This document shows, piece after piece, positions 13,082 through 34,800 of a stretch of 64,000 bases of DNA; position 1 is the first letter of the stretch, and each line of letters begins with the position of its first letter. The stretch is from assembly GCA_014879945.1 (NCBI GenBank), contig JACSRE010000199.1, positions 1-64,000 of the forward strand, in the 5' to 3' direction. The position numbers were made by a program, and so were the translations under genes. The stretch comes from Myxococcus sp. (lineage in GTDB: Bacteria; Myxococcota; Myxococcia; Myxococcales; Myxococcaceae). The notes under the pieces were generated by a model. It was not told the origin of the DNA. It ran no database searches and saw nothing but the letters and a program-made list of their open reading frames with translations.

Positions 13082-13190
13082 GGCTCGACGGGGCGGCCCC
13101 ATGGGGGCTCGGAGAACCCGAGACCGACGCCAGCGCCGAGGGAGCCGCGTTCTTACTTCCACGGAGCCGAGCCACGAGGCCTCGGAGAAC
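13082..13190 (-). repeat. Two degenerate leader-distal CRISPR repeats
   Basis: Positions 13155-13190 match the consensus repeat with three changes (first base, one A to C, and a broken GGGCTC stem). Positions 13082-13117 match at about 27 of 36 bases, best at the GGGCTCGGAGAAC end. Both sit exactly one repeat-spacer unit apart (spacers 37 and 41 nt), so they are real eroded array units, marking the oldest, leader-distal end. Confidence 0.85.
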
Positions 13191-16059
13191 TCGAGGTACG
13201 GGGCCGGCGCCTCCCCGCCCGTGTTGAGGACCCTTCAACGGAGCCGAGCCACGAGGGCTCGGAGAACACCTGCTCGCGGCGCGGCATCTCGTCGAGGCGG
13301 AAGGAGCTTCAACGGAGCCGAGCCACGAGGGCTCGGAGAACCCAGAAGCCAGGTGAACAACAACACCGCCCTCAAGTCGCTTCAACGGAGCCGAGCCACG
13401 AGGGCTCGGAGAACGCTTGGCGCCCGTGGGCTTCTTCGACTTCCTGCGCTCGCTTCAACGGAGCCGAGCCACGAGGGCTCGGAGAACTCCGTGAATCTGC
13501 ATGCCGCGAATCTGCGCATCGCCGATGGCTTCAACGGAGCCGAGCCACGAGGGCTCGGAGAACGTCTACGTCGGCTTCTCCGGCCTCGCCTTCTCCACTG
13601 GGCTTCAACGGAGCCGAGCCACGAGGGCTCGGAGAACACTCGGAGGCCCCAACCCCCGTCTTTCAGTTTTGCGAATGCTTCAACGGAGCCGAGCCACGAG
13701 GGCTCGGAGAACGCGTGCCGCGCCCAAGCGCGCCGCTCCGGGCAAGCGGTGCTTCAACGGAGCCGAGCCACGAGGGCTCGGAGAACTGCGGGCAGTGACT
13801 CCGCGCGTGGTCGGAATCCCCGGCTTCAACGGAGCCGAGCCACGAGGGCTCGGAGAACGGCGCGCATTGCCGTCGTTTCAGTCTCACACAGGAGGCTTCA
13901 ACGGAGCCGAGCCACGAGGGCTCGGAGAACTGTGGACGCACGAGCGCTGCCGCAAGTGCGGCGCCTACTTGCTTCAACGGAGCCGAGCCACGAGGGCTCG
14001 GAGAACAGCTTGCGGTTGATGCCACGCCCCGCGCCTTTCGTGAGGCTTCAACGGAGCCGAGCCACGAGGGCTCGGAGAACAAGGTAAGCGCGCTGCCACG
14101 GGGTTGATTGATGCGCTGCTTCAACGGAGCCGAGCCACGAGGGCTCGGAGAACCCGTGCAACGAAAAGGCGTGGGCGAAGCTGTGCCCGAAGCCGCTTCA
14201 ACGGAGCCGAGCCACGAGGGCTCGGAGAACGCGTCGACAACGGCTCGGTGCACTGGCGCTACGAAATGCTTCAACGGAGCCGAGCCACGAGGGCTCGGAG
14301 AACCCGTCCTGCGCAGCCTCCTGCGTCTGAAGCGTGAGCTTCAACGGAGCCGAGCCACGAGGGCTCGGAGAACGCGATTCTCATTCGCCTGACGAAGACT
14401 GTCGGCACCGTGCTTCAACGGAGCCGAGCCACGAGGGCTCGGAGAACTCGTCGTCCAGCAGGTAGGCCAGCTCCGTCAGCAAGTCGGCTTCAACGGAGCC
14501 GAGCCACGAGGGCTCGGAGAACCGGCGCCCTCGTCGTCGTTGGCGAGTCTCATCCATGCTTCAACGGAGCCGAGCCACGAGGGCTCGGAGAACCACCTCG
14601 CCGGGCAGACGGCCGGTGACGGGGTGAGTCCAGCTTCAACGGAGCCGAGCCACGAGGGCTCGGAGAACTGGGGCTGATGGCCGTCACCGCGACGCCCACC
14701 ACCTGGCTTCAACGGAGCCGAGCCACGAGGGCTCGGAGAACGAGGGCGCTGCCCATCTGCTTGCCGACCGTCTTGCCGCTTCAACGGAGCCGAGCCACGA
14801 GGGCTCGGAGAACTCGACGACGGGACGAAGGACCTCGCTCGGCCGGTCAACGAGCTTCAACGGAGCCGAGCCACGAGGGCTCGGAGAACGCCCGAGCCGC
14901 CTCCCGTCGTCGAGTAGAACGTCGTGCTTCAACGGAGCCGAGCCACGAGGGCTCGGAGAACCGGAAGCTCGGCGATGACGACATGAGCGACTTCACCATG
15001 CTTCAACGGAGCCGAGCCACGAGGGCTCGGAGAACTGGCGTGATGCTCCCGCTGCAGCACGACGCCTTGCTCTCGGCTTCAACGGAGCCGAGCCACGAGG
15101 GCTCGGAGAACCGAGGTACGGCCCCGGGCTCACCTTCTCGATGATGGCTTCAACGGAGCCGAGCCACGAGGGCTCGGAGAACTCGGCTGCTCTCGCGCGT
15201 TGTCGACGGTCGAGACCGCGCTTCAACGGAGCCGAGCCACGAGGGCTCGGAGAACGACGCCAGAAGTAGCTGGTGCGCTCCCAGTCGTCGCTTCAACGGA
15301 GCCGAGCCACGAGGGCTCGGAGAACGGAAGAATCGCTTCCCGCACCTCGACGACTTCAGCGCGCTTCAACGGAGCCGAGCCACGAGGGCTCGGAGAACCT
15401 GGTCGGCCTCGACGAGCGAATGGGCGAGGGGAAGCGGCTTCAACGGAGCCGAGCCACGAGGGCTCGGAGAACGTCACCAGCGCCCCGCCCCGCTGCGCCC
15501 GCATGCGGCTTCAACGGAGCCGAGCCACGAGGGCTCGGAGAACCGCCGCCTGGTGCGCACGTCGACGGGCGACGAGGCCGTGTCGCTTCAACGGAGCCGA
15601 GCCACGAGGGCTCGGAGAACCGTGTGAACGAGACGCGCGAGTGTCTGGGCTCTCTCGGCTTCAACGGAGCCGAGCCACGAGGGCTCGGAGAACCTCGGTG
15701 GACGGCTGGAACGCCGCCCTGTGCTTCGTCGCTTCAACGGAGCCGAGCCACGAGGGCTCGGAGAACCGCCTCGGCCACCAGCCGCGTGCCCTCGGCGTTC
15801 ACCGCTTCAACGGAGCCGAGCCACGAGGGCTCGGAGAACCTCTGGGGACAGACGTCGCGCATGGCCGAGTCCTCCTAGCTTCAACGGAGCCGAGCCACGA
15901 GGGCTCGGAGAACCCCACGGAGATGGCAGCCGCGCCGCCGCCCAGCCACGAGCTTCAACGGAGCCGAGCCACGAGGGCTCGGAGAACCGGTCGTCGGCAT
16001 CGGCTGCGCTAGAACGACAGCGAGCTTCAACGGAGCCGAGCCACGAGGGCTCGGAGAAC

Positions 16060-16098
16060 CAGCCCTGGGCGGGAGTCGAACCCGCTACGCACGGTTTA
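16060..16098 (-). other. CRISPR spacer matching the 3' half of a tRNA
   Basis: Read on the crRNA strand this 39-nt spacer contains GCGGGTTCGACTCCCGC, a perfect tRNA T-arm (5-bp stem, TTCGACT loop). It is preceded by a short variable-loop-like stretch after an anticodon-stem-like AAACCGT, and followed by CCAGGGCT, which fits a 3' acceptor strand. The protospacer is therefore a tRNA gene or a tRNA-derived site, for example a phage tRNA or an attachment site in an integrated element. No full tRNA is present here, so this is not a tRNA gene. Confidence 0.8.
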
Positions 16099-19000
16099 GC
16101 TTCAACGGAGCCGAGCCACGAGGGCTCGGAGAACGCCTGCGCGGCGCCGTCTACGTGATTCAGCGCGAACTGCTTCAACGGAGCCGAGCCACGAGGGCTC
16201 GGAGAACTACTCGGGCAGTTCGATGGGCTCCAGCGGCGTCACCATGCTTCAACGGAGCCGAGCCACGAGGGCTCGGAGAACCAGGGCCCCGAGCGGGCCG
16301 CAGACGCGTGCAGGCGCGCTTCAACGGAGCCGAGCCACGAGGGCTCGGAGAACAGGAGGCCATCCGAGAGCTCGGCTGCGCCGCTGAGGCGCTTCAACGG
16401 AGCCGAGCCACGAGGGCTCGGAGAACCGCACGCCACCTCGTAGCAGCCGCCACCGCTGAAGGTGGCTTCAACGGAGCCGAGCCACGAGGGCTCGGAGAAC
16501 CCGGTGTCGCCGACGGCAACGAGGGTGGGCAGCGGCGTGCTTCAACGGAGCCGAGCCACGAGGGCTCGGAGAACTCGTCGTCGTTACCACGGCATCACCT
16601 CCATCAGCCTGCTTCAACGGAGCCGAGCCACGAGGGCTCGGAGAACCGTCCGGGCTCCCGGTCGTCGCGTCTGACGTGCCCGCGCTTCAACGGAGCCGAG
16701 CCACGAGGGCTCGGAGAACATCAGCGGGCGTAGGGTTGCGCGCGCCGGGCCCCCGCGCTTCAACGGAGCCGAGCCACGAGGGCTCGGAGAACCACCTTCA
16801 CCACCTACGCGCCCGTGTCGCCTGGGTGGAACATGCTTCAACGGAGCCGAGCCACGAGGGCTCGGAGAACCTCGCCGGCAGAAGGAAGGGGACATGGCAC
16901 TGACGAAGCTTCAACGGAGCCGAGCCACGAGGGCTCGGAGAACTCGATGAACGCGCCTCGACACGACGAGTCCCTGCGCCTGCTTCAACGGAGCCGAGCC
17001 ACGAGGGCTCGGAGAACCTGAGGTGACTCTTGTCTGAGCCAGCCCCCGACCCGAAGCGCTTCAACGGAGCCGAGCCACGAGGGCTCGGAGAACACCGCGA
17101 CCGCCGCGAACGTCGCGACCACGAACATCCAGCTTCAACGGAGCCGAGCCACGAGGGCTCGGAGAACCCGGCGGTACGCCGCCAACGCGCTCAACGCCAT
17201 CCTCGCTTCAACGGAGCCGAGCCACGAGGGCTCGGAGAACGCCGTGTCGAACCACGTCATCTACACGGTGGACGAGGTGCTTCAACGGAGCCGAGCCACG
17301 AGGGCTCGGAGAACCGTCACCTCGCCGTCCTCGTGCCGCAGCGGCTCAACCCCGCTTCAACGGAGCCGAGCCACGAGGGCTCGGAGAACACCACCCGAAG
17401 GCGGCCAGCGTGCGCGCCAAGCTGGAGTCGATGCTTCAACGGAGCCGAGCCACGAGGGCTCGGAGAACACCGGCACCGCCACCAGCTCCGTGGTGGGCAG
17501 AGAGCTTCAACGGAGCCGAGCCACGAGGGCTCGGAGAACAGGCATTCGCGCATACGTAACCGACCCGTTTCAGGAAGTGCTTCAACGGAGCCGAGCCACG
17601 AGGGCTCGGAGAACCGGAAGACGCCGGCCTTCCACAGCGCGCCCGGAACATCTTGCTTCAACGGAGCCGAGCCACGAGGGCTCGGAGAACAAGGCCCAGG
17701 AGGCGCTCAAGGGAAACTGAGGCGCGGCGCTTCAACGGAGCCGAGCCACGAGGGCTCGGAGAACGAGCGCACTCTCGGACGGGACTCGCTTCGGATCGTC
17801 CGGCTTCAACGGAGCCGAGCCACGAGGGCTCGGAGAACGAGAACGTCTCTTTGGGACGGTAGACGGGCATCTCTTCGGCTTCAACGGAGCCGAGCCACGA
17901 GGGCTCGGAGAACGACACCTCGTGCTGGTGCTGGAGGCCCTGCGCAAGGCGCTTCAACGGAGCCGAGCCACGAGGGCTCGGAGAACTGAGTCGTCGTCGT
18001 CTGCTGCCCGTCGAGGAGCCTCTTGCTTCAACGGAGCCGAGCCACGAGGGCTCGGAGAACTTGCCGAGCGCCCCGCGCCCGGTGCGTGTCGCGTTGTAGC
18101 TTCAACGGAGCCGAGCCACGAGGGCTCGGAGAACCCGCATGCGCCCGGCGGCCAGCGGCGGCGGCGGCCTGCTTCAACGGAGCCGAGCCACGAGGGCTCG
18201 GAGAACAGCGCGTAGCCATAGGTCGGCAGCAATACGCCAAGACTCGCTTCAACGGAGCCGAGCCACGAGGGCTCGGAGAACCACGTCGACTCGCACCAGC
18301 CCGGCAGGGCCATGCTGGCTTCAACGGAGCCGAGCCACGAGGGCTCGGAGAACTCACCGAGTCGGCCCTCAACCCCCGCAAGGAGTTCGCGCTTCAACGG
18401 AGCCGAGCCACGAGGGCTCGGAGAACTGTCGGCCGTCGCGCGCCCGATGCGGCCCGGCACGCTTCAACGGAGCCGAGCCACGAGGGCTCGGAGAACCCCG
18501 CTCAGCTCCTCAACCTCCGAGATGGATGCACCCGCTTCAACGGAGCCGAGCCACGAGGGCTCGGAGAACGAACGAGCCTTTTTGTGTCTGTCCTGCCGCT
18601 TTGGCGCTTCAACGGAGCCGAGCCACGAGGGCTCGGAGAACGGCAATGGAGCCCGGGCAACAGAGGAAGACATGATGGCTTCAACGGAGCCGAGCCACGA
18701 GGGCTCGGAGAACGACTCCCAGCGCCTCCGGGAAGACGGTCCCACAACACGTGCTTCAACGGAGCCGAGCCACGAGGGCTCGGAGAACCTGGTGTGCCGC
18801 TCGCCGGTGCGCACGCTTCGCACGCAGCTTCAACGGAGCCGAGCCACGAGGGCTCGGAGAACATGTTTCGGAGGTGGCGCTGGTCATACTGGTACACGGA
18901 GCTTCAACGGAGCCGAGCCACGAGGGCTCGGAGAACTACTACGAGACGGCCTCGGGCTCGGCCGGCATGCTGCTTCAACGGAGCCGAGCCACGAGGGCTC

Positions 19001-20247
19001 GGAGAACCACCCAAAGGCCGCAGATGATCTCTAAGCCGGTGTTGCTTCAACGGAGCCGAGCCACGAGGGCTCGGAGAACCTACGCTGCGCAGTCCATCTA
19101 CGACTGGATGGACGATGGGCTTCAACGGAGCCGAGCCACGAGGGCTCGGAGAACCGTCTGGGAGCACGCCGTCGCCGACTGGTTGTCCGATGCTTCAACG
19201 GAGCCGAGCCACGAGGGCTCGGAGAACCACGATCTCTGTGCGTGCCCCTCGTGCCCTGATCGCTTCAACGGAGCCGAGCCACGAGGGCTCGGAGAACAGT
19301 CTGATCTTGAGGCATCATTTCGGGCCACGTTCGGGCTTCAACGGAGCCGAGCCACGAGGGCTCGGAGAACTCATCCTCCCCTCTGAAAGGACTCACCATG
19401 GACACCTCGCTTCAACGGAGCCGAGCCACGAGGGCTCGGAGAACTGAGTCCCTCAAGAGTTTCGAACTCGTGCCCCTCACGCTTCAACGGAGCCGAGCCA
19501 CGAGGGCTCGGAGAACTCACCGAGGTCGAGCGTCAGCGCCTCCAGCGGGTACTGGCTTCAACGGAGCCGAGCCACGAGGGCTCGGAGAACAGCGTCACGC
19601 GCCCGGCGACGAAGAACGGCTCTTCCGCTTCAACGGAGCCGAGCCACGAGGGCTCGGAGAACTTCACCAGCTTGACCCCTTTGGCCATGTCCTCAGCATC
19701 GCTTCAACGGAGCCGAGCCACGAGGGCTCGGAGAACCTCTGAGGGCGTGTGGTTCGTGGGCACCGGGGATCGGCTTCAACGGAGCCGAGCCACGAGGGCT
19801 CGGAGAACCGGGGGATCACTCGGTGCCGGTCCAATCGGCCCAGGTTGCTTCAACGGAGCCGAGCCACGAGGGCTCGGAGAACTTGTCTGGTCACCACCTG
19901 ACGAACCAGCCACCACGAGCTTCAACGGAGCCGAGCCACGAGGGCTCGGAGAACATCTGCGGTCTCTGCGTAGCGATCCAAATCCTTTTTGCTTCAACGG
20001 AGCCGAGCCACGAGGGCTCGGAGAACCGCCGCGGGCGCGAAGTACCCGGGGTACAAGACGTACTTGCTTCAACGGAGCCGAGCCACGAGGGCTCGGAGAA
20101 CCTTCGGCTTTAAAGATGGTCGTGTTTCTTATATAGCTGCTTCAACGGAGCCGAGCCACGAGGGCTCGGAGAACCGCTGAGCACACCTTCCCCAACAGTC
20201 ACGAGCCGCTCGCTTCAACGGAGCCGAGCCACGAGGGCTCGGAGAAC

Positions 20248-20454: not shown

Positions 20455-20751
20455 CTACACGATCTTCGGCCCCTTCTCCGGCGGCCTGGTCGCGCGGCCC
20501 AGACACTCGAACGACGTCATACCACGGCCATCTGACGGGCCGACGTCGACGATGAGGACGGCGTCCTCCTCGTGATGCATCACGCGCCTCAACGCGCTCT
20601 TCATCAACACGATCGTCATCTCGGTCAGGTCGCACGAGAAGACGGACAACTGCAGGTGGGTACCGAAGCCCTTCATCACCTTGAACACCTGCCGCAGCCG
20701 CTTGGGATCCGACACGTCGTACGTCACCAGGTACCTGTTGCGCATCTTCAC
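20455..20751 (-). CDS. cas2: CRISPR-associated endonuclease Cas2
   Basis: The 98-residue protein has the Cas2 ferredoxin-like start RYLVTYDVSDPKRLRQVF with the conserved Asp after YLVTYD, and HLQLSVFSCDLT in the second half. Cas2 forms the central dimer of the Cas1-Cas2 spacer integrase. The GTG at 20751 overlaps the stop of the cas4-cas1 gene; an in-frame ATG two codons later is an alternative start. It is the last gene before the array leader. Confidence 0.96.
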   Translation of the reverse strand: MKMRNRYLVTYDVSDPKRLRQVFKVMKGFGTHLQLSVFSCDLTEMTIVLMKSALRRVMHHEEDAVLIVDVGPSDGRGMTSFECLGRATRPPEKGPKIV

Positions 20752-22415
20752 CTCGTCTTGAAGCCCGGGTAGTCAGGGAGCTCGCCGCGCAGGTGTCGCG
20801 CCAGCAACCTGCACTGCACCTCGAAGATCCTCCGGTACGACACGCGGTACCCAAAGAGCGGATGGGTCACCTGCTCCGAGACGCGGCGCTCCCACGCCTT
20901 GAGCACCTTCTTTCGGCCCTCGGCGTTCAGCGTCACGCCGACACCTCGACGAATGAAGTCCTTCGCGGTGACGACGCCCATGTTGATGACGTTCACCACC
21001 ACCGAGTCAGCGACGATGGGCCGCAGCTCCTCCATCACGTCGAGGGCGAGTGAGAAGCGGCCCGCGCGCGGTTGATGGAGGAACCCCAGGTACGGGTCGA
21101 AGCCCACCAGCCGCGCCGCCACCGCCACGTCCTTGGTCAGCATCGAGTACGCGAACGACAGGAGCGCGTTCACCGCGTCTTTCGGAGGCCGCCGGTTGCG
21201 GGTGGTGAAGTCGAAGGTGCCCAGGGCATCAGTCTTGAGGAGCCGGCCGAAGTTCTCGAAGTACAGCCGCGCCGCGTTGCCTTCGAGGCCCAGGAGCGTC
21301 TCGAGTGACTCCGCAGCCGCAGCGCGCTCGGCCAGGCTGGCGAGCTCCAACATCAACCCGGGTTCATCATCCCCGAGGTTGCGCCGGAGGAAGGTGCGCG
21401 AGTTGACGATCTTGGTGGCGACGAAGACGCGCGCGAGGGCCAGTCGGCGCTCCGGCGACGCGGCGGCGGCGTATTGGGCCTGGCGCAACGCCACCTGGCC
21501 GTGGCCCAGCCCGTCGAGCAGCCCTGACAGCCAGCCCCCCGTGCTCAGCCACGCCACCGGCACGCCCCGGCTCGACACCTCGCGGATCGCCTGCGAGCTG
21601 ATCTGCACGTTCCCCATCAGCACCACGTGCGAGACGTCAACCAGCGGCGCGTCGAGGAGCTTCTTCTGCTCCCGGTCCTTCACCTGCAGGCAGTGCCCGC
21701 TCACGCCGACCTTCGCGCCGAGCTCCTGCACGTAGAGCGGCTGGGCGTCGTCTCGGGCAGGCAGCAGCGCCCGCGGGGGCCCGCTCCCCTCGACCCCCGA
21801 CAGCAGGTTCACCTCATCGGGCAGACACAGGCCAGACAACGAGCACCCCACGCACTTCGGGCTCGCGATGAGCGGCGGCGGGGGCACGGCGCTTCGCGAG
21901 ACGGTCCGCGCGAGCTTCACCGCCTCGCGCGTGCGGGCGATGAGGCCCTCGTCGAAGCGCACCTCGACGCGCCGTCGTGACTTCGCGAAGTAGAACTCGC
22001 CCCGCTCGACCCGATAGCCGGCCTCTCGCAGGAGCAACCCGTACAGGCACAACTGCACCAGCTCCGGCTCGTAGGCGCCCTCGGGAACGTCGGGGGCCTC
22101 GCCGCGCTTGGTCTCGACGGGCATCACCTCGCCGTCGGCCGCCTCGACGAGATCGATCTTCGCGCTGACCCCGAGCGCAACGGAGGAGAGCTCGACGCTC
22201 CGCGCCTGCCACGGGCGGTCGGCGTCGGCCAGCGGCGCCGTGGGCTCGCCCTCATCCACCCGCTCGTGCACCGCGCGGCCCTCGACGGTGAAGTGGTTGT
22301 CGTCGAAGTCGCGGTCGACCCACTCCAGGTAGAAGAGCCGTGGGCAGTACGAGACCTCGTTGATCATCCGCGCAGGAATCGGCGGCACCGCGACATCCCC
22401 AATGTCGTCGTGCAT
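20748..22415 (-). CDS. cas4-cas1: Cas4-Cas1 fusion (spacer acquisition nuclease/integrase)
   Basis: The 555-residue fusion is the hallmark adaptation protein of type I-G/I-U systems. Cas4 part (about 1-205): NEVSYCPRLFYLEW with the first Cys, SAKIDLVEA and VETKRG nuclease residues, and KCVGCSLSGLC, completing an Fe-S Cys set. Cas1 part (about 225-555): LEGNAARLYF with the catalytic Glu, then FLHQPRAGRFSLALDVMEE with the His and Asp. In relatives Cas4 selects PAM-bearing prespacers and Cas1 integrates them. I use the ATG at 22415 (MHDDIGDV); no good ribosome site is visible, and upstream in-frame starts to 22511 are possible. Coupled to cas2. Confidence 0.95.
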   Translation of the reverse strand: MHDDIGDVAVPPIPARMINEVSYCPRLFYLEWVDRDFDDNHFTVEGRAVHERVDEGEPTAPLADADRPWQARSVELSSVALGVSAKIDLVEAADGEVMPVETKRGEAPDVPEGAYEPELVQLCLYGLLLREAGYRVERGEFYFAKSRRRVEVRFDEGLIARTREAVKLARTVSRSAVPPPPLIASPKCVGCSLSGLCLPDEVNLLSGVEGSGPPRALLPARDDAQPLYVQELGAKVGVSGHCLQVKDREQKKLLDAPLVDVSHVVLMGNVQISSQAIREVSSRGVPVAWLSTGGWLSGLLDGLGHGQVALRQAQYAAAASPERRLALARVFVATKIVNSRTFLRRNLGDDEPGLMLELASLAERAAAAESLETLLGLEGNAARLYFENFGRLLKTDALGTFDFTTRNRRPPKDAVNALLSFAYSMLTKDVAVAARLVGFDPYLGFLHQPRAGRFSLALDVMEELRPIVADSVVVNVINMGVVTAKDFIRRGVGVTLNAEGRKKVLKAWERRVSEQVTHPLFGYRVSYRRIFEVQCRLLARHLRGELPDYPGFKTR

Positions 22416-22544
22416 GCATGAGAGTGTGGCGCGCAATTCTGCTTGCGCGAGTTCTGCGCCATGGCGCATCGTCTGCCCCGCTCGAACCCATGGGGGGGCC
22501 GGGCAACCCAACAGCGCAGCGCTGAACGATGAGGAGACCTGACC
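22416..22544. promoter_or_regulatory. Divergent promoter region between cas4-cas1 and unknown helical gene
   Basis: This 129-base gap separates two genes pointing away from each other, so it must hold promoters in both directions. AATTCT and TTGCGCG elements occur near 22435-22448 but no convincing promoter pair can be named. A GAGGAG ribosome site lies just before the 22545 start. Confidence 0.45.
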
Positions 22545-23348
22545 ATGCCCGTCATTGACGAGACCCTTGCCGTGACCGTGAAGCCCCTACGCGTGCCGCT
22601 CGACGCGCCGACGGAGCAGTCGTTGGCCGCCGAAGCAGCCGCGCTGGGAGACGCCTACTCCGAGGTCACGGCGCATCCGGCCGATCTGCTGGCCGACGCT
22701 GCCGAGATGTTGAAGGCGAAGAGCGACGCCGCGGCGCTCGCGGAGCGCGGGTACGCCATCTCTCCCGGGGTCTTCACGCGCATCGAGCTGCTGGCAGGCG
22801 CGCTGACGCCGATGAGCGCGCAGCAGGTGCGTCAGGTCGAGGCGAGCAAGGTGAAGACGGCCGAGGCCGAGGCGGCGCGCGAGCGGTTGTTGACGATTCG
22901 CGGCGAGATCGCGCGCATCGGCCACGCCGCGGGCCTGCCGACCGGCGTGTTCTCGCTCGAGACCGACCGCACCCAGCGGCTCAACGTGGTGATGATGAAG
23001 ATGGAGGAGGTGCTCCTCAACGTCGCCGCCTACTGGGCCCACCTGCCGGACAAGAAGCGCCTCGAAGCGCTGGTGACCGAGGCCCGCGCGTTGATCGACG
23101 CGCAGAAGGCCGCTCGCCAGGATGCCAGGCTGCTTCGCACCGACCGCAGCCTCGACTCGAGGAAGGCCGGCCGCTACGAGCGCCTGTTGCTCAACGCCAT
23201 GCAGCACGTCTCGGCCCAGGGCCTGGCTGCGTTCCCCAATGATCCGGTGCGCGAGCCCGTGTACCGGCTCGATCACGTGTACGGCCGCAAGGCGAGCAAG
23301 GTCGCCGACCCGGGGGCTGGCAAAGACACCGGCGCGCCTCCCGCCTGA
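22545..23348 (+). CDS. Unknown helical protein embedded in the CRISPR locus
   Basis: A 267-residue protein starting at ATG 22545 with GAGGAG ten bases upstream. I do not recognise the family. It looks almost wholly alpha-helical: Ala/Glu/Lys-rich heptad-like stretches at about 85-125 (QVRQVEASKVKTAEAEAARERLL) and 170-215, no Cys, no signal peptide and no membrane segment. The C-terminus (PVYRLDHVYGRKASK) is basic. Codon use is as G/C-biased as the host's. It lies between the adaptation operon and the toxin-antitoxin pair, so it is either an unrelated insertion or a CRISPR accessory protein. Confidence 0.75.
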   Translation: MPVIDETLAVTVKPLRVPLDAPTEQSLAAEAAALGDAYSEVTAHPADLLADAAEMLKAKSDAAALAERGYAISPGVFTRIELLAGALTPMSAQQVRQVEASKVKTAEAEAARERLLTIRGEIARIGHAAGLPTGVFSLETDRTQRLNVVMMKMEEVLLNVAAYWAHLPDKKRLEALVTEARALIDAQKAARQDARLLRTDRSLDSRKAGRYERLLLNAMQHVSAQGLAAFPNDPVREPVYRLDHVYGRKASKVADPGAGKDTGAPPA

Positions 23349-23572: not shown

Positions 23573-24136
23573 TCACCCGTGAAGCAGTCGTTCGATGGTC
23601 GCGAGGGGGAGGTAGAGCCGGCGTCGCTCCCCGCTCGAGCCGAGCCTCGCGAATCCGTACCGCTCGTAGAAACCAGCCGCGCGCTCATGCTTCGCGTCGA
23701 CCAACACCCCTGCGCAACCGGCCAGCACGCCCACCTGCCGACACCGCTTGAGCGCGTCGAAGATGAGCGCGCGGCCCAGGCCTGCCCCTTTCGCGCTGAT
23801 GTGCCGGCCCAGGCGAGCAATGAGCACCGCGCCGAGCTGTTGGTAGTTCGGCAATCGCTTCGGGTGATGCGGGCCGACCTCAGCAGGGGTCGCCGACGCA
23901 ACGGCCAGCGTGTAGAAGCCCAGAATCCGCGGTTGGCCTTCGTCGAGCATCACGAAGGTCCTGCTGACCGTGCCCTCGTTCTTGAGGGCGTAGCGACGCA
24001 AGAACTCGTCAAGCTCCGGTTCGCCGGAGTCGAAATCACGGGTCGGATGGCTCGGCAGCAGCGGAACGGCGAGAAAGCCATCGGCCGTGTTCGGCGGCGG
24101 CTTTTCGGAGCTCTGCGGTGGGTTCGGGGGGCTCAC
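23573..24136 (-). CDS. GNAT acetyltransferase toxin (TacT-like)
   Basis: A 187-residue GNAT protein. The N-terminal FDSGEPELDEFLRRYALKNE block is typical of TacT/KacT-class toxins, which acetylate the amino group of charged tRNAs and stop translation. The acetyl-CoA loop is visible as KGAGLGRALI and the conserved Tyr lies in FYERYGFARL near the C-terminus. The GTG at 24136 has a GGAGGGG ribosome site eight bases upstream and overlaps the antitoxin gene by 101 bases. The first 18 residues (Pro-rich) are unusual for the family, but no other in-frame start is available. Start codon and part of the ribosome site lie in a palindrome (24128-24147). Confidence 0.85.
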   Translation of the reverse strand: MSPPNPPQSSEKPPPNTADGFLAVPLLPSHPTRDFDSGEPELDEFLRRYALKNEGTVSRTFVMLDEGQPRILGFYTLAVASATPAEVGPHHPKRLPNYQQLGAVLIARLGRHISAKGAGLGRALIFDALKRCRQVGVLAGCAGVLVDAKHERAAGFYERYGFARLGSSGERRRLYLPLATIERLLHG

Positions 24137-24422
24137 GCGTGAGCCCCTCCATCGCAGCGAACTCCTGGGCGCTCACCTTCAACTCCACCGAGGTGGCCGC
24201 CCACTCGAGGTTGGTCAGGGTCGGCGTCATCAGCTCGCAATCGGGGGCGCGACGCGCGGGGTCCACCGTCAAGACACGGCGGCCTCGCCGGACCTCGAGC
24301 ACCACCTTCAAGAAGAGCGCGAGCGCTTCGTCGACCAACTGGCTGCGACTCAGGCCCAGCTCGTCGGCCAATTCGTTCACGGCGGCACCCCGGCTGTCGG
24401 GCAATGTGGCTTCGATTCGCAT
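24036..24422 (-). CDS. RHH-type antitoxin paired with GNAT toxin
   Basis: A 128-residue protein beginning MRIEATLPDSRGAAVNELADELGLSRSQLVDEAL, a ribbon-helix-helix DNA-binding module like those in DUF1778-class antitoxins. The remaining residues (EWAATSVELKVSAQEFAAM and an Arg/Ala-rich tail) would wrap the toxin. Antitoxin-first order and overlap with the GNAT gene fit a TacA/TacT-like module that represses its own promoter. The overlap of 101 bases is longer than the usual few bases. Confidence 0.75.
   Translation of the reverse strand: MRIEATLPDSRGAAVNELADELGLSRSQLVDEALALFLKVVLEVRRGRRVLTVDPARRAPDCELMTPTLTNLEWAATSVELKVSAQEFAAMEGLTREPPEPTAELRKAAAEHGRWLSRRSAAAEPSDP
24128..24147 (-). promoter_or_regulatory. 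Perfect 20-bp palindrome covering the toxin start codon
   Basis: GGGGCTCACGCGTGAGCCCC is a perfect palindrome inside the antitoxin reading frame. In the mRNA the 5' arm contains most of the GGAGGGG ribosome site and the 3' arm begins with the toxin GTG. A hairpin here would hide the toxin start until ribosomes translating the antitoxin open it. Confidence 0.6.
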
Positions 24423-24646
24423 TGGGATGGAGCAGAGCGTAACCCGGTTCGTGCGTGGAAATCCCGCAAATCTCCGCAATCATCCGGGCAGCGTCGTGCA
24501 GGTCGACCTCTCCCGTCAAGCGATATGGCCTCCTCTTCACTCCACCGTCTCAACAAGGCATATTCCATCGGCTGGGCTTCGTTGAAGCTTGAGTCGGTGG
24601 AGAGCCCCATCTTTCCCAGCGTCGTTTCAACCGAAAGGACCACCCC
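24423..24646. promoter_or_regulatory. Divergent intergenic region before the interference operon
   Basis: This 224-base gap separates the TA pair (minus) from csb1 (plus) and should carry both promoters. It is less GC-rich than the genes. A clear ribosome site GAAAGGA is present at 24632-24638 for csb1. I see no repeat resembling the CRISPR repeat and no reliable -35/-10 pair. Confidence 0.5.
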
Positions 24647-25858
24647 ATGGCGATGACCCTCGAAGCACTTCGGCAACTCACCCAGGAAGCAGTCGCGATT
24701 CGCGGAAAGGCAACGCTCGACCCCGCCGGTGGCCCCTCGGACAAAGTGTTCCCGCCAACGCACTCGGTGAAGGAAGGCCAGAACCGCTACGCCCTCGAGA
24801 CCCGGAGAATCGATGGCGAGACCGTCCAGTGCGTGCTCCTCGACTCGGTTCAGAGTCAGGCCAACCGCATGGAGGAAGCGCTCCAGAGCCTCTGGGCTGA
24901 TCGGCAAATCAGCCTGCCCGTGGTCGCCGTCGACTTCGGAGCCATCGCCCCCGAGGTGGGCATGCTGACTTCGCTGACCGCGCCGCACCGCGTGTCCGAT
25001 GCGCTCCTTCGGGACAGCATGCTCGGAGATACACTCTTCAGGCTCTCACCGCTGGGGAAGTCCTTCACCGACGCGACGCCAAGGTACGCGGCTCCGCTCT
25101 TCAAGATCTGCCCCACGGCGCTGGTCTTTGGGCTCTGGGACAGCACCGGCCCCAAGGGCGGCCTCGGCTCCAAGTTCGCGCGCTCGCTGGTCTCGGAGAT
25201 CGTCGGCATCGGCGCCGTCAGCGGCGCGAAGACTGCCAGCCGCATCGACCCGACCGGCATCGTCACCAAGGCCGGCGAGGTGCTCGAAGCCAAGGACCCC
25301 AACCAACGCTGGACGCTCGACCCCAACGAGGCGCGAGTCGACAAGAAGGGCAAGGTCGTGAAGGTCGGAGACGGGAAGGTCTCTGAGGTCAACCACAGCA
25401 ACATCCCGCCGACGATCGACCTCACGTCGGGCGGCGTCACCGTCGACCGAATCGAACACTCAGTCGTGCTCTCTCTGGCCGCGCTCAGGAAGTTGAGCTT
25501 CGGCAAAGCAGACACCGAGGCGCGAACGGTGCTCGCCGCCCTCGGCCTCCTCGCGGTGGTGGCGAGCGAGGCACGCGGCCACGATCTCCGCAGCCGGTGT
25601 CTGCTGATTCCCCGAAAGGGTCAGGCGCTCAAGCTCGAGTCGATGGATCGCTTTGGTGAGTGCAAGTCGATCGACCTCGATCTCAATGGAGCCGTCGCGC
25701 TCTTCAAAGCGGCAGTTGATGCTCTTCCACCTGAGTTGAAGTTCGACAAGCAGCCGGGAGAACCCCTGGCGACCCTGACGCCCTCAGAGAAGCTCGCCTC
25801 GCTCATCACGAAGAGCCGCGAGCTCGCCGCTGCCGGAGCCGATGTCGAGGCCGAGTGA
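24647..25858 (+). CDS. csb1: Csb1, Cas7-family backbone subunit of type I-G Cascade
   Basis: The 403-residue protein matches the GSU0053/Csb1 family, the Cas7-group subunit that coats crRNA in type I-G (I-U) effectors. Features seen: an N-terminal helical segment, ETVQCVLLDSVQSQANRME, PHRVSDALLRDS, a FGLWDSTGPKGGLGSKFARSLVSEIVG core that is highly typical of the family, and IEHSVVLSLAALRKLSF. Start ATG 24647 with GAAAGGA upstream. First gene of the csb1-csb2-cas3-csb3 operon. Third-position G/C is somewhat lower than in the housekeeping genes, with more A/T-ending codons. Confidence 0.93.
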   Translation: MAMTLEALRQLTQEAVAIRGKATLDPAGGPSDKVFPPTHSVKEGQNRYALETRRIDGETVQCVLLDSVQSQANRMEEALQSLWADRQISLPVVAVDFGAIAPEVGMLTSLTAPHRVSDALLRDSMLGDTLFRLSPLGKSFTDATPRYAAPLFKICPTALVFGLWDSTGPKGGLGSKFARSLVSEIVGIGAVSGAKTASRIDPTGIVTKAGEVLEAKDPNQRWTLDPNEARVDKKGKVVKVGDGKVSEVNHSNIPPTIDLTSGGVTVDRIEHSVVLSLAALRKLSFGKADTEARTVLAALGLLAVVASEARGHDLRSRCLLIPRKGQALKLESMDRFGECKSIDLDLNGAVALFKAAVDALPPELKFDKQPGEPLATLTPSEKLASLITKSRELAAAGADVEAE

Positions 25859-27483
25859 TGCTCTCGATACAGGTCGAGCTGCTCACGGGCCGGTACGTCG
25901 CGACCGCGCACGACGATCGACGCAGTGCCGAGTGGCCCCCCCACCCCGCGCGTTTGTTCTCGGCGCTGGTGGCAGCGCACTACGAGGCCACGAGCACCAG
26001 CCCCGCTGAACGCGAGGCCCTGCTGTGGCTCGAGGCACAACCAGCACCGTCGCTGCGCGTCGTCGGTGGCGCCGGGCGACGGGACATCCACGACGTCTTC
26101 GTTCCGGTCAACGACGTCACCACAGTGGGCGATCTCGGGGCGCCCCTCGAAGAGAGTCAGACTGCGCTTGAGGCGATCAAGGCGGCCGGCGGTTCAGCTG
26201 CAGAGATCAAGAAGGCCGAAAAGGCCGTCGAGAAGCGACGCAAGCAATTGGCTGACTCGCTCGCCGACCTGTCGAGGCCTGAGCCATCTCCCGCCACCTC
26301 GACTCTCGCCGCGGCGCGCGCGCTCCTCCCCGAACGTCGGACGCGACAGATGCGTACGTTTCCCGTCGTGATCCCTGATGAGCCGACGCTCTCGTTCATC
26401 TGGCAGGCCGACGCGCCGGCGGCGGTCAAGCAGGCGCTGGAGAGCTTGTGTGCGCGGGTCACGCGACTTGGCCACTCGTCATCTCTGGTCTGGTGTCGGG
26501 TCGATGATCGGCCGGTGACACCGACGCTGGTGCCGCGCCCCGATGGCGAGCTTGTCCTCAGAACCGTTGGGCCGGGCCAACTCGAGCGGCTCGACGCCGC
26601 CTTCGCCGAACACCAGGGCGTTCGCGGCCGCGTACTCCCGGCCGTGCCGCAACGCTACGGAGCACCGGCCGAGCCGAAAAGGCCCAGGCCGGCCTCGGTG
26701 TTCGCCGCCGACTGGATCGTGTTCGAGCGTGTCGCAGGGGCGCGCGTCGTCGGCTCGAAGTCCGTCGACCTCACCCGTGCGCTCCGAGCAGCAATTCTGG
26801 AACAGCACGGCAAGCCTGGAATGCCCCCGAGCTTGTCCGGCCACGACTCCACCGGAAAACCAACGACGCAGCCGCACCTCGCCTTCCTCGCCCTCCCCTT
26901 CGTCGGCAGCGAATACGCCGACGGCTCGATCAAGGGTGTCGCGATCGTGCCTCCGCGAGAGCTCTCGGAAGCGGATCGCGAGCTGTTGTACCGGCTCATC
27001 GCGCAATGGGAGCGCGACCAGCCCGAGGGCCGACTCACGCTGGCTGGGCCCGGGCTGCCACCCGTGACCTTCAAGCGCGTTGCCGTGCCATCAATGGAGG
27101 CGGCCAGACCGACGCGCTGGTGTCAGAGCTCGACGCGTTTCATCACGGCGACCCCAATCGCCCTCGACCGAAACCCCGGCAATCTGCGGAGCAACCTCGA
27201 ACGAACCGCCCACAAAGCGGCGGAGGAGGCGAGAGAGAGCATCGCGGCCTCCTGCGAGTCGATCGGCCTGCCGAGGCCGTCGGGGGTCGAGCTCTCGTTT
27301 GCCCCGCTGCTGCAAGGTGGCCAGTCGTCGATGGCGTACCTCGCGGCGCGGGCCGGCAAAGCCCAGCGAGTTCGCATTCACGCGGAGCTTCGGTTCGACG
27401 AGCCCGTTCGCGGGCCACTCCTCATCGGCGCCGGAAGACACTTCGGCCTCGGGCTGTGCCTCCCGGTTGGAGAGACTCGATGA
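25858..27483 (+). CDS. csb2: Csb2, Cas5-Cas6 fusion of type I-G
   Basis: A 541-residue protein of the GSU0054/Csb2 family, a Cas5-like RAMP joined to a Cas6-like RAMP. It would both cap the crRNA 5' end and process pre-crRNA, explaining why no separate cas6 is present. The N-terminus (LSIQVELLTGRYVATAHDDR, AEWPPHPARLFSALVAA) is characteristic. The C-terminus has the glycine-rich RAMP loop GPLLIGAGRHFGLGLC. The ATG at 25858 overlaps the csb1 stop (TGATG). A helical, charged insert lies around residues 95-150. Confidence 0.92.
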   Translation: MLSIQVELLTGRYVATAHDDRRSAEWPPHPARLFSALVAAHYEATSTSPAEREALLWLEAQPAPSLRVVGGAGRRDIHDVFVPVNDVTTVGDLGAPLEESQTALEAIKAAGGSAAEIKKAEKAVEKRRKQLADSLADLSRPEPSPATSTLAAARALLPERRTRQMRTFPVVIPDEPTLSFIWQADAPAAVKQALESLCARVTRLGHSSSLVWCRVDDRPVTPTLVPRPDGELVLRTVGPGQLERLDAAFAEHQGVRGRVLPAVPQRYGAPAEPKRPRPASVFAADWIVFERVAGARVVGSKSVDLTRALRAAILEQHGKPGMPPSLSGHDSTGKPTTQPHLAFLALPFVGSEYADGSIKGVAIVPPRELSEADRELLYRLIAQWERDQPEGRLTLAGPGLPPVTFKRVAVPSMEAARPTRWCQSSTRFITATPIALDRNPGNLRSNLERTAHKAAEEARESIAASCESIGLPRPSGVELSFAPLLQGGQSSMAYLAARAGKAQRVRIHAELRFDEPVRGPLLIGAGRHFGLGLCLPVGETR

Positions 27484-30275
27484 AGGCCGCTGACTTTGGG
27501 GCGTTCCACCTCGCAGTTCACGGCCGAGCCCCGTTCGACTGGCAGCAGCGACTCCTGGAGCAGGTCGTTCGCCAACGGGCCTGGCCATCGGTTCTCGATC
27601 TGCCGACAGGCGCGGGGAAGACGACCTGCCTCGACATTGCCGTGTTCGCCCTGGCGCTCGACTCCGAGAGCGCCACGCCGTGGTGTGCGAGACGCATCGC
27701 GATGGTGGTCGACCGCCGCGTCGTCGTCGACCAGGTCGCGGAGCGAGGCCGACGTCTGGCTCAGGCGCTGCTGAACCCAGGTGGTGCGGTCCTCGGCGAG
27801 GTCGCGCGTCGTTTGGGCGCGATGAGTCGAGAGCAGGCGCCGCTCGCGGTGTACACCCTGCGCGGCGGCATTCCGAAGGATGACGGCTGGGCACGGACAC
27901 CCGACCAGCCGTTGATCATCGCGTCGACAGTGGACCAGCTCGGCTCGCGACTGCTGATGCAGGGCTACGGCGTCAGCGCAGGCATGGCGCCAGTGCACGC
28001 CGGGCTCATCGGAAACGACACCTTGCTGCTGCTCGACGAGGTTCATCTGTCGGGGCCCTTCGCGGAGACCCTCGAGGCGTTGCAGCGGCTGCGGAGCCGC
28101 TTCGTGCGCACCCGTTTTCAATGCGCCTTCCTGTCAGCGACACCGGTCGCACAGGTGAGCGAGCCCTTCAAACTGAGCGGGGCTGATACGGCCGAAGACA
28201 GTGTCCTGGGCAAGCGACTCCGCGCGCCGAAACCCGCGATGCTGGCCGAGGCCGCGGGTCGCACCGCGCTCGAGTCACAGTGCGTCGACGCAGCGCGCGA
28301 CCTCATCGCACGGCACAACACCGTCGCCGTCGTGCTGAACCGGGTCGGGAGCGCCCTGACGGTCGCAAGGCAACTCCAGGAGTGCCTGAAGGACGAAGCC
28401 GACGTCGAGGTGTTGACCGGCCGAATGCGACCAATCGATCGAGATGCGCTGGTCGCGCGCCTGAAGCCGAGAATTCTGGCGGGGCGACGTCGAGACGAGG
28501 TCGCGAGGCCTTTGATCGTGGTCGCGACCCAATGCGTCGAAGCAGGCGCCGACTTCGACTTCGATGCGCTCGTAACGGAGGCCGCGAGTCTGGCTGCGCT
28601 CAGACAACGATTCGGTCGCGTCGACCGGCTTGGTGAGTACGGCAAAGCAGAGGGCCTCATCATCCGCGACCGGGCGGGCAAGAACGACCCCATCTACGGC
28701 AAAGCCCTCGATGAGACCGCCGCGTGGCTGAAAGAGCACCTCGACAAGAAGCGACGCTCCATCGACTTCGGGCCCCTGAATCTCCCGTCGGCGTCCGCCG
28801 AGGAATTGGAGTTGATGCGGGGCCCGGAGAAGCACGCACCCGTCTTGCTGCCCGCCTACCTCGACCTCTGGGCCCAGACAGGCCCGGCCCCTGAGCTCGT
28901 TCCAGAGGTGTCGTTGTTCCTCCACGGCCCCGAGTCTGGTCCTCCCGACATTCAAGTCATCTGGCGCGCCGACGTCGAGCCGGAGATGCCAGCCGAGCTG
29001 TTGGTCGAGGTCATCTCGGCGATTCGCCCGTCGAGCCTCGAGGCCGTCTCGGTCCCTTTCGGGGCGGCGCGCCGATGGCTCTCAAAGAGCGCCAGCGAGG
29101 ACGGCGAGATCGCCGATCTCGAAGGGACTACTGGCGACGATGAGGCCATCGAAGGTGATCAGCACGTCTTCCGTTGGCGGGGGGAAGACAGCGCGGTCGT
29201 GCGAGTCGAGGCGCTCCGGCCAGGTGACACCGTCATCGTGCCCGCCGGGCGTGGTGGGCTCTGGCGCGGCTGCTTCAGCCCCGAGTGCCGGGAACCGGTC
29301 CGCGACCTCGCAGAACAAGGCGCGCTCCTGGCCCGAGGCCGGGCAATGCTGCGAGTCCAGCCGGAGGTGCTCTCTGGCCTTGGTCTGCCGCGAGCGGCCG
29401 CCCGCGACCCTGAAGCCCTGGAAGACGCCCTCGAGGGCCTGCAGGGGAACGAGCCATGGATGAAGCCGTGGGCTGAGCGACTCCGGAAGCGTGGCCGGCC
29501 GTTTGTCGTCACCTCAGGCGAAACGGGCTGGTCGTGCCTCGATGGCGGCCTGATCGGCAGAGCGGCGCTGAGGGTCCTGGCGATCGATCCTGAAGCAGAC
29601 GTGACGACCGACGACGAGGAGTCCTCCTTTCTCGGAAGGTCGGTGCCCCTCGATGAGCACTCCGCCGACGTCCGCGCGTTCGCTCGGGACTTCGCGGCGA
29701 CCCTCAAGCTGCCAAAGCCGCTCGCCTCAGACCTCGAGTTGGCAGGGTGGCTGCACGACATCGGGAAGGCAGACCGTCGATTTCAACTCCTGCTTCGGCG
29801 CGGCGACCCGATCGAGTTCTTCAAGGACGAGCGCCCATGGGCCAAGTCGGCACTGACACCCGGCGCTCGATACGAACAGCGCCTCGCCCAACGGAAGAGT
29901 GGCTACCCCAGCGGAACCAGACACGAGGTTCAATCGGTCGCGATGTTGGAGGCACACCGGAGCGAGCTGGTCCAGCGGGCCCACGACCCTGAGCTCGTGC
30001 TCCACCTCGTCGCGACTCATCACGGCCACTGTCGGCCGTTCGCGCCACCGGTGCTCGACGAAGAGCCAGTTGACGTCGCGCTCGAGCACGGAGACTGGAA
30101 GTTCGGACCCGTGTCCTCTGCCAACGGGCTGCACCGACTCGACTCGACCATTGCTGACCGGTTCTGGCGGCTGGTCGAGAAGTACGGCTGGCTCGAGCTC
30201 TGTTGGCTCGAGGCGGTCTTGCGGCTGGCTGACCATCGCGCAAGTGAGGCGGAACAGAGGGGAGCGGAGTCATGA
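27480..30275 (+). CDS. cas3: Cas3 helicase-nuclease, C-terminal HD (type I-G)
   Basis: The 931-residue protein has SF2 helicase motifs first: Walker A LPTGAGKTT (41-49), DEVH (about 187-190), SATP (about 220), and motif VI QRFGRVDRLG (about 376). The HD nuclease comes last: GWLHDIGKADRRF (about 755), ATHHGHC (about 845) and LADHRAS near the end. Helicase-then-HD is the order known for the GSU0051-type Cas3 of this subtype, the reverse of most Cas3 proteins. It degrades target DNA once recruited by the effector. The ATG overlaps the csb2 stop (ATGA). All core motifs are intact, so the protein should be active. Confidence 0.95.
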   Translation: MKAADFGAFHLAVHGRAPFDWQQRLLEQVVRQRAWPSVLDLPTGAGKTTCLDIAVFALALDSESATPWCARRIAMVVDRRVVVDQVAERGRRLAQALLNPGGAVLGEVARRLGAMSREQAPLAVYTLRGGIPKDDGWARTPDQPLIIASTVDQLGSRLLMQGYGVSAGMAPVHAGLIGNDTLLLLDEVHLSGPFAETLEALQRLRSRFVRTRFQCAFLSATPVAQVSEPFKLSGADTAEDSVLGKRLRAPKPAMLAEAAGRTALESQCVDAARDLIARHNTVAVVLNRVGSALTVARQLQECLKDEADVEVLTGRMRPIDRDALVARLKPRILAGRRRDEVARPLIVVATQCVEAGADFDFDALVTEAASLAALRQRFGRVDRLGEYGKAEGLIIRDRAGKNDPIYGKALDETAAWLKEHLDKKRRSIDFGPLNLPSASAEELELMRGPEKHAPVLLPAYLDLWAQTGPAPELVPEVSLFLHGPESGPPDIQVIWRADVEPEMPAELLVEVISAIRPSSLEAVSVPFGAARRWLSKSASEDGEIADLEGTTGDDEAIEGDQHVFRWRGEDSAVVRVEALRPGDTVIVPAGRGGLWRGCFSPECREPVRDLAEQGALLARGRAMLRVQPEVLSGLGLPRAAARDPEALEDALEGLQGNEPWMKPWAERLRKRGRPFVVTSGETGWSCLDGGLIGRAALRVLAIDPEADVTTDDEESSFLGRSVPLDEHSADVRAFARDFAATLKLPKPLASDLELAGWLHDIGKADRRFQLLLRRGDPIEFFKDERPWAKSALTPGARYEQRLAQRKSGYPSGTRHEVQSVAMLEAHRSELVQRAHDPELVLHLVATHHGHCRPFAPPVLDEEPVDVALEHGDWKFGPVSSANGLHRLDSTIADRFWRLVEKYGWLELCWLEAVLRLADHRASEAEQRGAES

Positions 30276-31168
30276 GGAAGGTCGTATTGACTGGCCTGAC
30301 GGGCACCAATCCGCTCCATTTTCTCGCCAGCGTTGGGCTGCTTCGCATCGCGGCACGCGTGCACGACCGGGCGCGACTCGCCTTCCTCGACGACGGCAGC
30401 TATCGACCCTTCGTCGAAGGCATTGACGAGTCACTCGCAGGGTTGGTCGCGCGTGATGCCACTGAACAGGCGGGGCCGCAGCCCTGGCGCCTGCAGTACG
30501 GCAAGGTCGAGAAGCGCGGCGAGAAGTTCGTCGAAGACCTGAAGCCACCACCCGAGACGTTCCGCTCGTTCCTCGACAGCGCCCTGTCTCGATGGGTTGA
30601 GACCGGCGACAGTGAGGGAGCCGCGTATGCCGCCGCCTATGGCACCAGCACTGCCGTGGACAACAAGGGCAACACCAAGCCAACGGCCTTTCACTTCACG
30701 GCTGCGAACCAACAGTTCCTCGGGGCGATCGAAGCCATCAGGGCCTCGATTGACGAGGATTGGTGCAGAGCAGCGCTGTTTGAGGCCAACGCATTGCGAC
30801 CCGGCGGAAACGTGCGCTGGGACCCGGGAGCGGACCGGAACTACGCGCTGATGGCTGACGACCCCAATACCGAAGGCACGAGCGTCAACGCACCGCTGGA
30901 GTGGCTTGCGTTTCGAGCCCTGCCGCTCTTGCCGTGTGTGCCCATCAAGGCGCGGGTCTTCACGACCGCGGTCTCTGGTCGAGGCGATAGCGCGGCGTTT
31001 AGCTGGCCTCTGTGGCGCGCACCTGCGTCGCTCCGCACGGTCGCGAGCCTGCTTCGACTACCCGCTGAAGCCGATGCTCGGCGGGGCCTGTTCGCCGCCG
31101 TGCGCGCCTCGATTCGGCGAACCAGTCAGGGCTTCGGCAACTTCGGTCCGGGCTCCGTCTCGGCTTGA
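30272..31168 (+). CDS. csb3: Csb3, short Cas8-type subunit of type I-G
   Basis: A 298-residue protein starting LTGLTGTNPLHFLASVGLLRIA, the signature opening of the Csb3/GSU0052 and Csx17 families, the large-subunit position of type I-G/I-U complexes. At under 300 residues it is the short Csb3 form rather than Csx17. Other features: AAYGTSTAVDNKGNTKPTAFHFTAANQQFL and EWLAFRALPLLPCVP. ATG overlaps the cas3 stop. It would recognise the PAM and stabilise the R-loop, by analogy with Cas8. It ends the operon 9 bases from a converging gene. Confidence 0.85.
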   Translation: MRKVVLTGLTGTNPLHFLASVGLLRIAARVHDRARLAFLDDGSYRPFVEGIDESLAGLVARDATEQAGPQPWRLQYGKVEKRGEKFVEDLKPPPETFRSFLDSALSRWVETGDSEGAAYAAAYGTSTAVDNKGNTKPTAFHFTAANQQFLGAIEAIRASIDEDWCRAALFEANALRPGGNVRWDPGADRNYALMADDPNTEGTSVNAPLEWLAFRALPLLPCVPIKARVFTTAVSGRGDSAAFSWPLWRAPASLRTVASLLRLPAEADARRGLFAAVRASIRRTSQGFGNFGPGSVSA

Positions 31169-33798: not shown

Positions 33799-34800
33799 TC
33801 AGCGGCGCGCCCTCAAACCCGCGCTCCGGACGACGGGCAGCGAGGACAGCTCGACCAGCTCGTCTTCGCGGGTCAACAGCGGCCGGGGCCGCGGCGACGC
33901 GTCGGTGAAGTGCCAGGTCAGCCGTACCCGCCTGGCGCCGGCGGGCACCTGCACCCGCACCGGCACGTCGGGCTCGAGGCGGGTGTCTCGCACCACGCCG
34001 ACGCCGGGCCGCCCCTGGGCGTCCTCCGTGCGCCCGAGCTCGAGGCCGAAGCGCCGCAGCGGCTCGTCGTCGGCCCACAGCACGAGGTGGCGGAACACGT
34101 CACCGGTCGGCACCCGGTGGCCCACGTCGTGCGCGGTGACGATCGCGACGCCGCCCTCGAGCTCGAGCCGCACCGCGCCGCGCACGAAGTCGACGTCGTG
34201 GCCCCCGCGCACGCGGTGCGAGGCCCCTGGCATGTGGCAGCCCTGGCAGGTCTGCGCGCCGCCCCACGCGCGCCACTCCGAGAGCGTCGTCTGCATCGGC
34301 AGCGCGTTCAGGCGCGTCGCGCCGTCGATGACGGCGTGGCCGGTGAACTCGTGACAGGTGCCGCAGAACTCGCTGGTGCGCAGCGCCGGGGTGAAGCGCA
34401 CCGGGTGCCCATACGGGAGCGCCGCAGCGCTCGGCGCCAGCACCTCGCCGTCGCGCACGTGGCAGACCGCGCAGGTGATGCCCTCGTGCACCGGCGAGCC
34501 TTCCGGCGGCAGGGCGCCTCGAGCGAGCAGATGGCGCGAAGTCCAGGAGTGCTTCAGCTGCGCCTCGAGCGGCCCGTGGCAGACGAGGCAGCGCCGCTGC
34601 GGCTCCGCCGAGAAGCCGTCGAGGAAGACGCGGCTGGTCAGGCTCTGGCGGTGCATCGAGGCCCGCCACTCGGCGGCGCGCTGCGGGTGACACGCGGCGC
34701 AGGCCGCGGCGCCCGGCGCGTCGAGCTGGAGCGGTCGCGTGAAGCCCGCGACGTCGAACGACGGCTGGGCCAACACCACCCACAGCAGCAGCGCGCTCAC
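33799..34800 (-). CDS. Multiheme c-type cytochrome (five CxxCH)
   Basis: A 333-residue secreted protein with five heme-c motifs, CAACH, CLVCH, CAVCH, CGTCH and CQGCH, all in the first two thirds. The N-terminal MSALLLWVVLAQPS is a short, weak signal peptide, so export is likely but cleavage uncertain. The last third is beta-rich without hemes (VRVQVPAGARRVRLTWHF). The arrangement resembles cytochrome c554-like periplasmic electron carriers. GTG start overlaps the stop of the upstream exported protein (GTGA). The pairing with that protein and an ABC exporter is unexplained. Confidence 0.87.
   Translation of the reverse strand: MSALLLWVVLAQPSFDVAGFTRPLQLDAPGAAACAACHPQRAAEWRASMHRQSLTSRVFLDGFSAEPQRRCLVCHGPLEAQLKHSWTSRHLLARGALPPEGSPVHEGITCAVCHVRDGEVLAPSAAALPYGHPVRFTPALRTSEFCGTCHEFTGHAVIDGATRLNALPMQTTLSEWRAWGGAQTCQGCHMPGASHRVRGGHDVDFVRGAVRLELEGGVAIVTAHDVGHRVPTGDVFRHLVLWADDEPLRRFGLELGRTEDAQGRPGVGVVRDTRLEPDVPVRVQVPAGARRVRLTWHFTDASPRPRPLLTREDELVELSSLPVVRSAGLRARR

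Follow-up and report, generated by a model that had tools for sequence, protein, structure and literature searches.

A spacer in a type I-G CRISPR array of Myxococcus sp. that very likely derives from a phage tRNA-Arg gene

Type I-G (formerly I-U) CRISPR-Cas systems with a Cas4/1 fusion, such as those of Geobacter sulfurreducens and Thioalkalivibrio sulfidiphilus, combine this fusion with Cas2, Csb1, Csb2, Cas3g and a Cas3-adjacent protein. An 8-nt repeat handle has been described for type I-G, for which a TTN PAM has also been cited, and toxin-antitoxin genes are present within the T. sulfidiphilus locus (PMC9638904). The PAMs listed for other type I-G systems are TTN, TTC, TAC, TAN and AAN (PMC8482600), and that of Bifidobacterium is TAT (PMC12915315). 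We analyzed a stretch of 64,000 nucleotides (hereafter, the window) from contig JACSRE010000199.1 of Myxococcus sp. (GenBank assembly GCA_014879945.1), in which the same set of genes accompanies a CRISPR array (Table 1). The NCBIfam profiles for the Cas4g/Cas1g fusion, Csb1, Csb2, Cas3g and the Cas3-adjacent I-G protein are all matched above their cut-offs, which assigns the locus to type I-G, and the array conforms to this type in its spacer lengths and in its 36-nt repeat, the end of which, GTTGAAGC, likewise corresponds to an 8-nt handle. The Cas3-adjacent protein is, we presume, a small Cas8-like subunit. The true start of cas3 is probably near position 27480, as the matched domain begins at residue 163 of the mechanically predicted ORF.

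Table 1. Coordinates of the array, of the spacer under study and its parts, and of the cas genes in the window
Feature	Position	Strand	Remarks
CRISPR array, 98 repeats and 97 spacers (34-43 nt)	13082..20247	minus	repeats degenerate on the left, far from the leader
36-nt repeat GTTCTCCGAGCCCTCGTGGCTCGGCTCCGTTGAAGC	16024..16059	minus	3' of spacer 57 on the crRNA strand
Spacer 57, counted from the leader	16060..16098	minus	reads, in the crRNA sense, as a tRNA 3' half (tRNA 36-73 and one further base)
Perfect T-arm GCGGG-TTCGACT-CCCGC, 5-bp stem and 7-nt loop	16069..16085	minus	
Variable loop GCGTA (tRNA 44-48)	16086..16090	minus	common to phage tRNAs of L097, L109 and CcrBL10
36-nt repeat	16099..16134	minus	5' of spacer 57 on the crRNA strand; provides the 8-nt handle GTTGAAGC
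cas2 (98 aa)	20455..20751	minus	Pfam PF09827
cas4/cas1 fusion, type I-G	20748..22511	minus	NF049935, 732.6 bits (cut-off 560)
cas7/csb1, type I-G	24647..25858	plus	TIGR02570
csb2 (Cas5-Cas6 fusion), type I-G	25855..27483	plus	TIGR02165
cas3, type I-G	27006..30275 (mechanical ORF)	plus	TIGR02621, 770 bits
Type I-G Cas3-adjacent protein (298 aa)	30272..31168	plus	NF049934, 246.8 bits (cut-off 65)

As in T. sulfidiphilus, toxin-antitoxin-like genes are found here, in this case as a pair located between the adaptation and effector genes: on the minus strand (23573-24479), a gene for a GNAT acetyltransferase overlaps an upstream ORF, the start of which looks like a ribbon-helix-helix antitoxin, and the pair resembles TacT-type toxin-antitoxin modules. 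The region between cas4/1 and csb1 also contains a 267-aa ORF (22545-23348, plus strand) that matches no Pfam or NCBIfam profile, and a 956-aa ORF encoded further downstream (34797-37667, minus strand) shows a Pfam match to the NAD glycohydrolase translocation F5/8-type domain. Degenerate repeats occur only at positions 13082, 13155 and 13232, all at the left end of the array, and cas2 and the cas4/1 fusion are located immediately to its right; the old end of the array is thus on the left and the leader on the right, so that the crRNA strand is the minus strand, in agreement with a preliminary description of this DNA.

The interval 16060-16098 corresponds to exactly one 39-nt spacer with a perfect 36-nt repeat on either side. 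The preliminary description had reported a perfect T-arm on the crRNA strand of this spacer, with variable-loop-like and acceptor-like sequences around it, and had taken the spacer to come from a tRNA gene; each of these points is borne out in finer detail. Read on the minus strand, spacer 57 is TAAACCGTGCGTAGCGGGTTCGACTCCCGCCCAGGGCTG, and every nucleotide can be assigned to a tRNA position with no remainder: T36, A37 and A38, anticodon stem 39-43 (ACCGT), variable loop 44-48 (GCGTA), T-arm 49-65, acceptor 66-72 (CCAGGGC) and T73, with one extra G. The 17-nt T-arm sequence occurs nowhere else in the host genome. Neither ARAGORN nor Rfam (above its threshold) identified a tRNA in the window, as expected for half a tRNA. 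The T-arm hairpin can fold inside the crRNA, spacer 57 ranking only 29th of the 97 spacers by folding energy per base.

For comparison with the tRNAs of the host, ARAGORN was run on 45 places assigned to tRNA by Rfam, yielding 44 distinct tRNAs; tRNA-Ile(GAU), tRNA-Cys and tRNA-Ala(UGC) were not recovered from the assembly (448 contigs, 98.67% complete) and so are left out. The best-fitting host tRNAs among the 44 are tRNA-Arg(UCU) and tRNA-Thr(UGU), each identical to spacer 57 at 28 of 39 positions and aligned in the same register, which was found without any assumption on the PAM. In both cases, TTN (TTC, TTG) precedes the aligned position, and the 11 mismatches include one to two at classic seed positions. 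In the host tRNA-Arg(CCU), the initial seven bases of the spacer are matched, but 16 positions differ overall and the upstream triplet is TCC. The variable loop GCGTA is present in none of the 44 host tRNAs, and neither the host genome nor any of 144 further genomes from the order contains a match to spacer 57 within three mismatches. The preliminary description held that either the PAM or mismatches would have to prevent self-killing. TTN is present at -3 to -1 in both of the best-matching host tRNAs, which points to the mismatches: if TTN, a motif known from other I-G systems, is the working PAM, these two genes appear to be protected by the mismatches, including those in the seed, and not by the absence of a PAM. 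Thus, spacer 57 is similar to self-targeting spacers in that a tRNA target could in principle strike the host, but differs from them in that the host tRNAs are at least 11 positions off, so that by sequence it is not self-targeting.

The closest relative of spacer 57 is a tRNA-Arg(CCU) gene of the uncultivated viral contig IMGVR_UViG_3300046382_000018 (labeled L097 or G145 in our data), which agrees with 35 of the 39 spacer nucleotides in an ungapped alignment that keeps the exact register and starts at tRNA position 36. This contig was the only one returned when IMG/VR viral contigs were scanned with the pattern TAANNNNNGCGTAGCGGGTTCGANTCCCGC, which fixes TAA, GCGTA and the T-arm; of the 14 unconstrained spacer positions (one N in the T-loop not counted), 10 agree compared to 3.5 expected (approximately 3e-4 by a binomial calculated by hand). 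A BLAST search with all 97 spacers as the query and the 50-kb viral record as the only subject gave this match an E-value of 2.1e-9. The spacer and the viral gene have in common GCGTA, four of the five anticodon-stem bases, the whole T-arm, T73 and the lack of an encoded CCA. A 20-kb stretch of the contig encompasses 25 tRNA genes along with a phage-family nicotinamide phosphoribosyltransferase, weak matches to tail proteins and a NUDIX protein that also weakly matches a cytidyltransferase, and in its tRNA genes, the phosphoribosyltransferase and the tail-protein matches, it is similar to the tRNA clusters of large tailed phages, although its closest tRNA is four mismatches off the spacer. One of these mismatches falls on seed position 7, and the CCU anticodon places TCC, not TTN, upstream, so a phage carrying this gene would probably itself escape targeting by spacer 57. 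The other 96 spacers showed no convincing match to the contig, and the array thus provides no further link between it and this host.

The exact protospacer is absent from IMG/VR, the phage collection and the genome collection. Scans of viral and genome contigs with exact and degenerate forms of the protospacer identified, in addition to the 35/39 contig, only a tRNA-Met on viral contig L060 (26/39), a phage tRNA-Arg(UCU) on viral contig L109 (28/39, with TTC preceding position 36 and loop GCGTA) and, in Berkelbacteria, two tRNA-Lys(UUU) genes (27/39); the latter are the only occurrences of TAANNNNNGCGTAGCGGGTTCGANTCCCGC among some 85,000 species of bacteria and archaea, each represented by one genome. 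The odd loop, GCGTA or GCATA, is also found in phage tRNAs, namely in the genes of L060 and L109 and in a tRNA-like stretch of Caulobacter phage CcrBL10. This stretch (1960-2045 of L051), which is unannotated, has the anticodon CTT and the loop GCGTA and lies just before an annotated tRNA-Lys. A BLAST search of the phage collection with spacer 57 yielded only tRNA-arm matches of 24-32 bases (best E-value 0.2), several of them in phage tRNA genes, and 95 other genomes of the family contain no match to this spacer. We set aside a query consisting of an invented full tRNA, the 5' half of which is a supplied consensus, and rejected as a chance hit the one match of the whole array in the phage collection (Pseudomonas phage PAE2), which straddles a repeat. 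The preliminary description had named a full-length match to a non-tRNA phage sequence and the lack of a tRNA score at the protospacer as observations that would speak against a tRNA origin; neither was made in these searches.

Among the sources of spacer 57 that had been suggested, the phage-borne tRNA is supported by the in-register 35/39 match to a tRNA-Arg gene in a tRNA-rich viral contig, and it appears very likely that the spacer was acquired from a phage tRNA-Arg gene and is a record of adaptive immunity, that is, ordinary anti-phage memory. The other two, an attachment site and capture of the host's own DNA, are disfavored by the divergence of the host tRNAs and the lack of any match within three mismatches in the host or the 144 genomes of its order. 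Many integrases recombine in the 3' half of tRNA genes, and spacer 57 covers this half plus one base beyond the discriminator, as would the attachment site of an integrative element; nevertheless, an attP core has to be nearly identical to the host attB, whereas the best host tRNA agrees at only 28 of 39 positions, with mismatches in the variable loop, the T-loop and the acceptor stem, and the closest match found is a complete tRNA gene that forms part of an extensive tRNA cluster on a viral contig, which renders this origin very unlikely. We consider it equally improbable that the spacer goes back to a cellular tRNA gene, of the host or of another bacterium, and drifted after its capture: the host tRNA-Arg(UCU) and tRNA-Thr(UGU) do share its register and have TTN ahead of the aligned part, and the perfect match of spacer 61 to a host gene indicates that capture of self-like DNA may have occurred in this array, but the 11 mismatches to the best host tRNA speak against such a source, as does the presence of GCGTA together with the T-arm in only two of the approximately 85,000 species genomes, both times in tRNA-Lys, and no cellular tRNA identical at 37 or more of the 39 positions was found among the host tRNAs and the searched genomes.

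Two further possibilities are less probable still. That the resemblance to a tRNA is a coincidence is extremely improbable given that the entire spacer aligns with a tRNA gene at 35 of 39 positions, ungapped and in the exact register, even though a T-arm look-alike with four base pairs exists in spacer 11 (about 0.06 expected per array). Perfect T-arms were found in one of the 97 spacers, namely spacer 57, compared to 0.0007 expected per array under the strict consensus and 0.009 under a relaxed one, as estimated by mononucleotide shuffling of all 97 spacers. The chances are similarly slim that the crRNA guides a CRISPR-associated transposon to a tRNA gene or serves as a CreTA-type antitoxin RNA connected with tRNA-Arg(UCU). 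Homing to tRNA genes is a property of some transposon systems, and tRNA-Arg(UCU) is the route by which CreT toxins work, but the locus possesses cas3, cas4/1, cas2 and a 97-spacer array, spacer 57 is located in the middle of this array between perfect repeats, and there is no close match among the host tRNAs.

Under the phage tRNA-Arg reading, the source would be a large tailed phage with many tRNA genes, a relative of that in the viral contig but distinct from it, and the captured gene most likely encoded a tRNA-Arg reading AGA/AGG codons. Cas4/1-Cas2 would have cut the prespacer within the anticodon loop, such that the first base of the spacer is position 36 and the preceding three are positions 33-35; if TTN applies, the invariant U33 would provide the first T and U34 the second. 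The crRNA, which has the sense of the tRNA, would be unable to base-pair with that tRNA and would instead bind the template strand of its gene, and, provided that type I interference proceeds in the usual manner, the effector complex and Cas3 would destroy the phage DNA, with Cas3 degrading outwards. Host tRNA genes would be spared by the differences at 11 or more of the 39 positions, the seed included. In this scheme, the spacer with its tRNA register, the type I-G genes, the 35/39 viral relative and the absence of a close host match are observations, and the exact source phage, the anticodon, the PAM of this strain and the activity of interference are what we infer.

No other external protospacer of the array, from which its PAM could have been read, was found in the phage collection, the 95 family genomes or the viral contig. 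TTN fits tRNA positions 33-35 only with a UNU anticodon: it requires T at 33 and 34 and, U33 being invariant, the condition falls on U34, which together with T36 from the spacer gives UNU and, combined with the Arg identity of the viral relative, UCU. If TTN is needed, the anticodon of the captured tRNA would then be UNU, with Arg(UCU) as the best fit, an assignment to which we would perhaps give even chances. With U33 invariant, every tRNA gene that has U34 presents TTN at its anticodon loop, and one could imagine, as a rather unlikely extension, that type I-G systems repeatedly sample phage tRNA genes at this site, that host tRNAs escape only by divergence, and that phages are pushed to change the anticodon (UCU to CCU) or the seed, the viral relative with its CCU anticodon and seed mismatch being such an escape form.

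A spacer from a phage tRNA gene falls within the known kind of anti-phage spacers. A literature search with partial coverage yielded no dedicated report of a spacer against a phage tRNA, and we make no claim of being the first. The case is a clean worked example of immune memory directed at a highly conserved kind of gene common to phage and host, where a seemingly risky target nonetheless appears safe because the phage tRNA has diverged, and it suggests a rule open to testing, namely that U33 provides a PAM base by default. It also connects the lineage of this bacterium with tRNA-rich phages, for which the collections searched yielded no cultured representative.

Two other spacers of the array deserve mention. 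Spacer 11 (19445-19480) contains the weaker look-alike ACGAG-TTCGAAA-CTCTT, with four of five pairs, and 18 of its bases are identical to the tRNA-Gly of two Escherichia phages; at the chance frequency of such motifs given above, its interpretation as a second tRNA-like spacer is unsupported. Spacer 61 (15767-15803) matches perfectly, over 37 bases, a host gene for an NAD-dependent epimerase/dehydratase (G000:C303:5218-5254). The sequence upstream of this target is GGC, not TTN, which may be the reason why the spacer is tolerated, and the targeted gene is conserved in the genus, with 35-36 of the 37 bases identical in three relatives.
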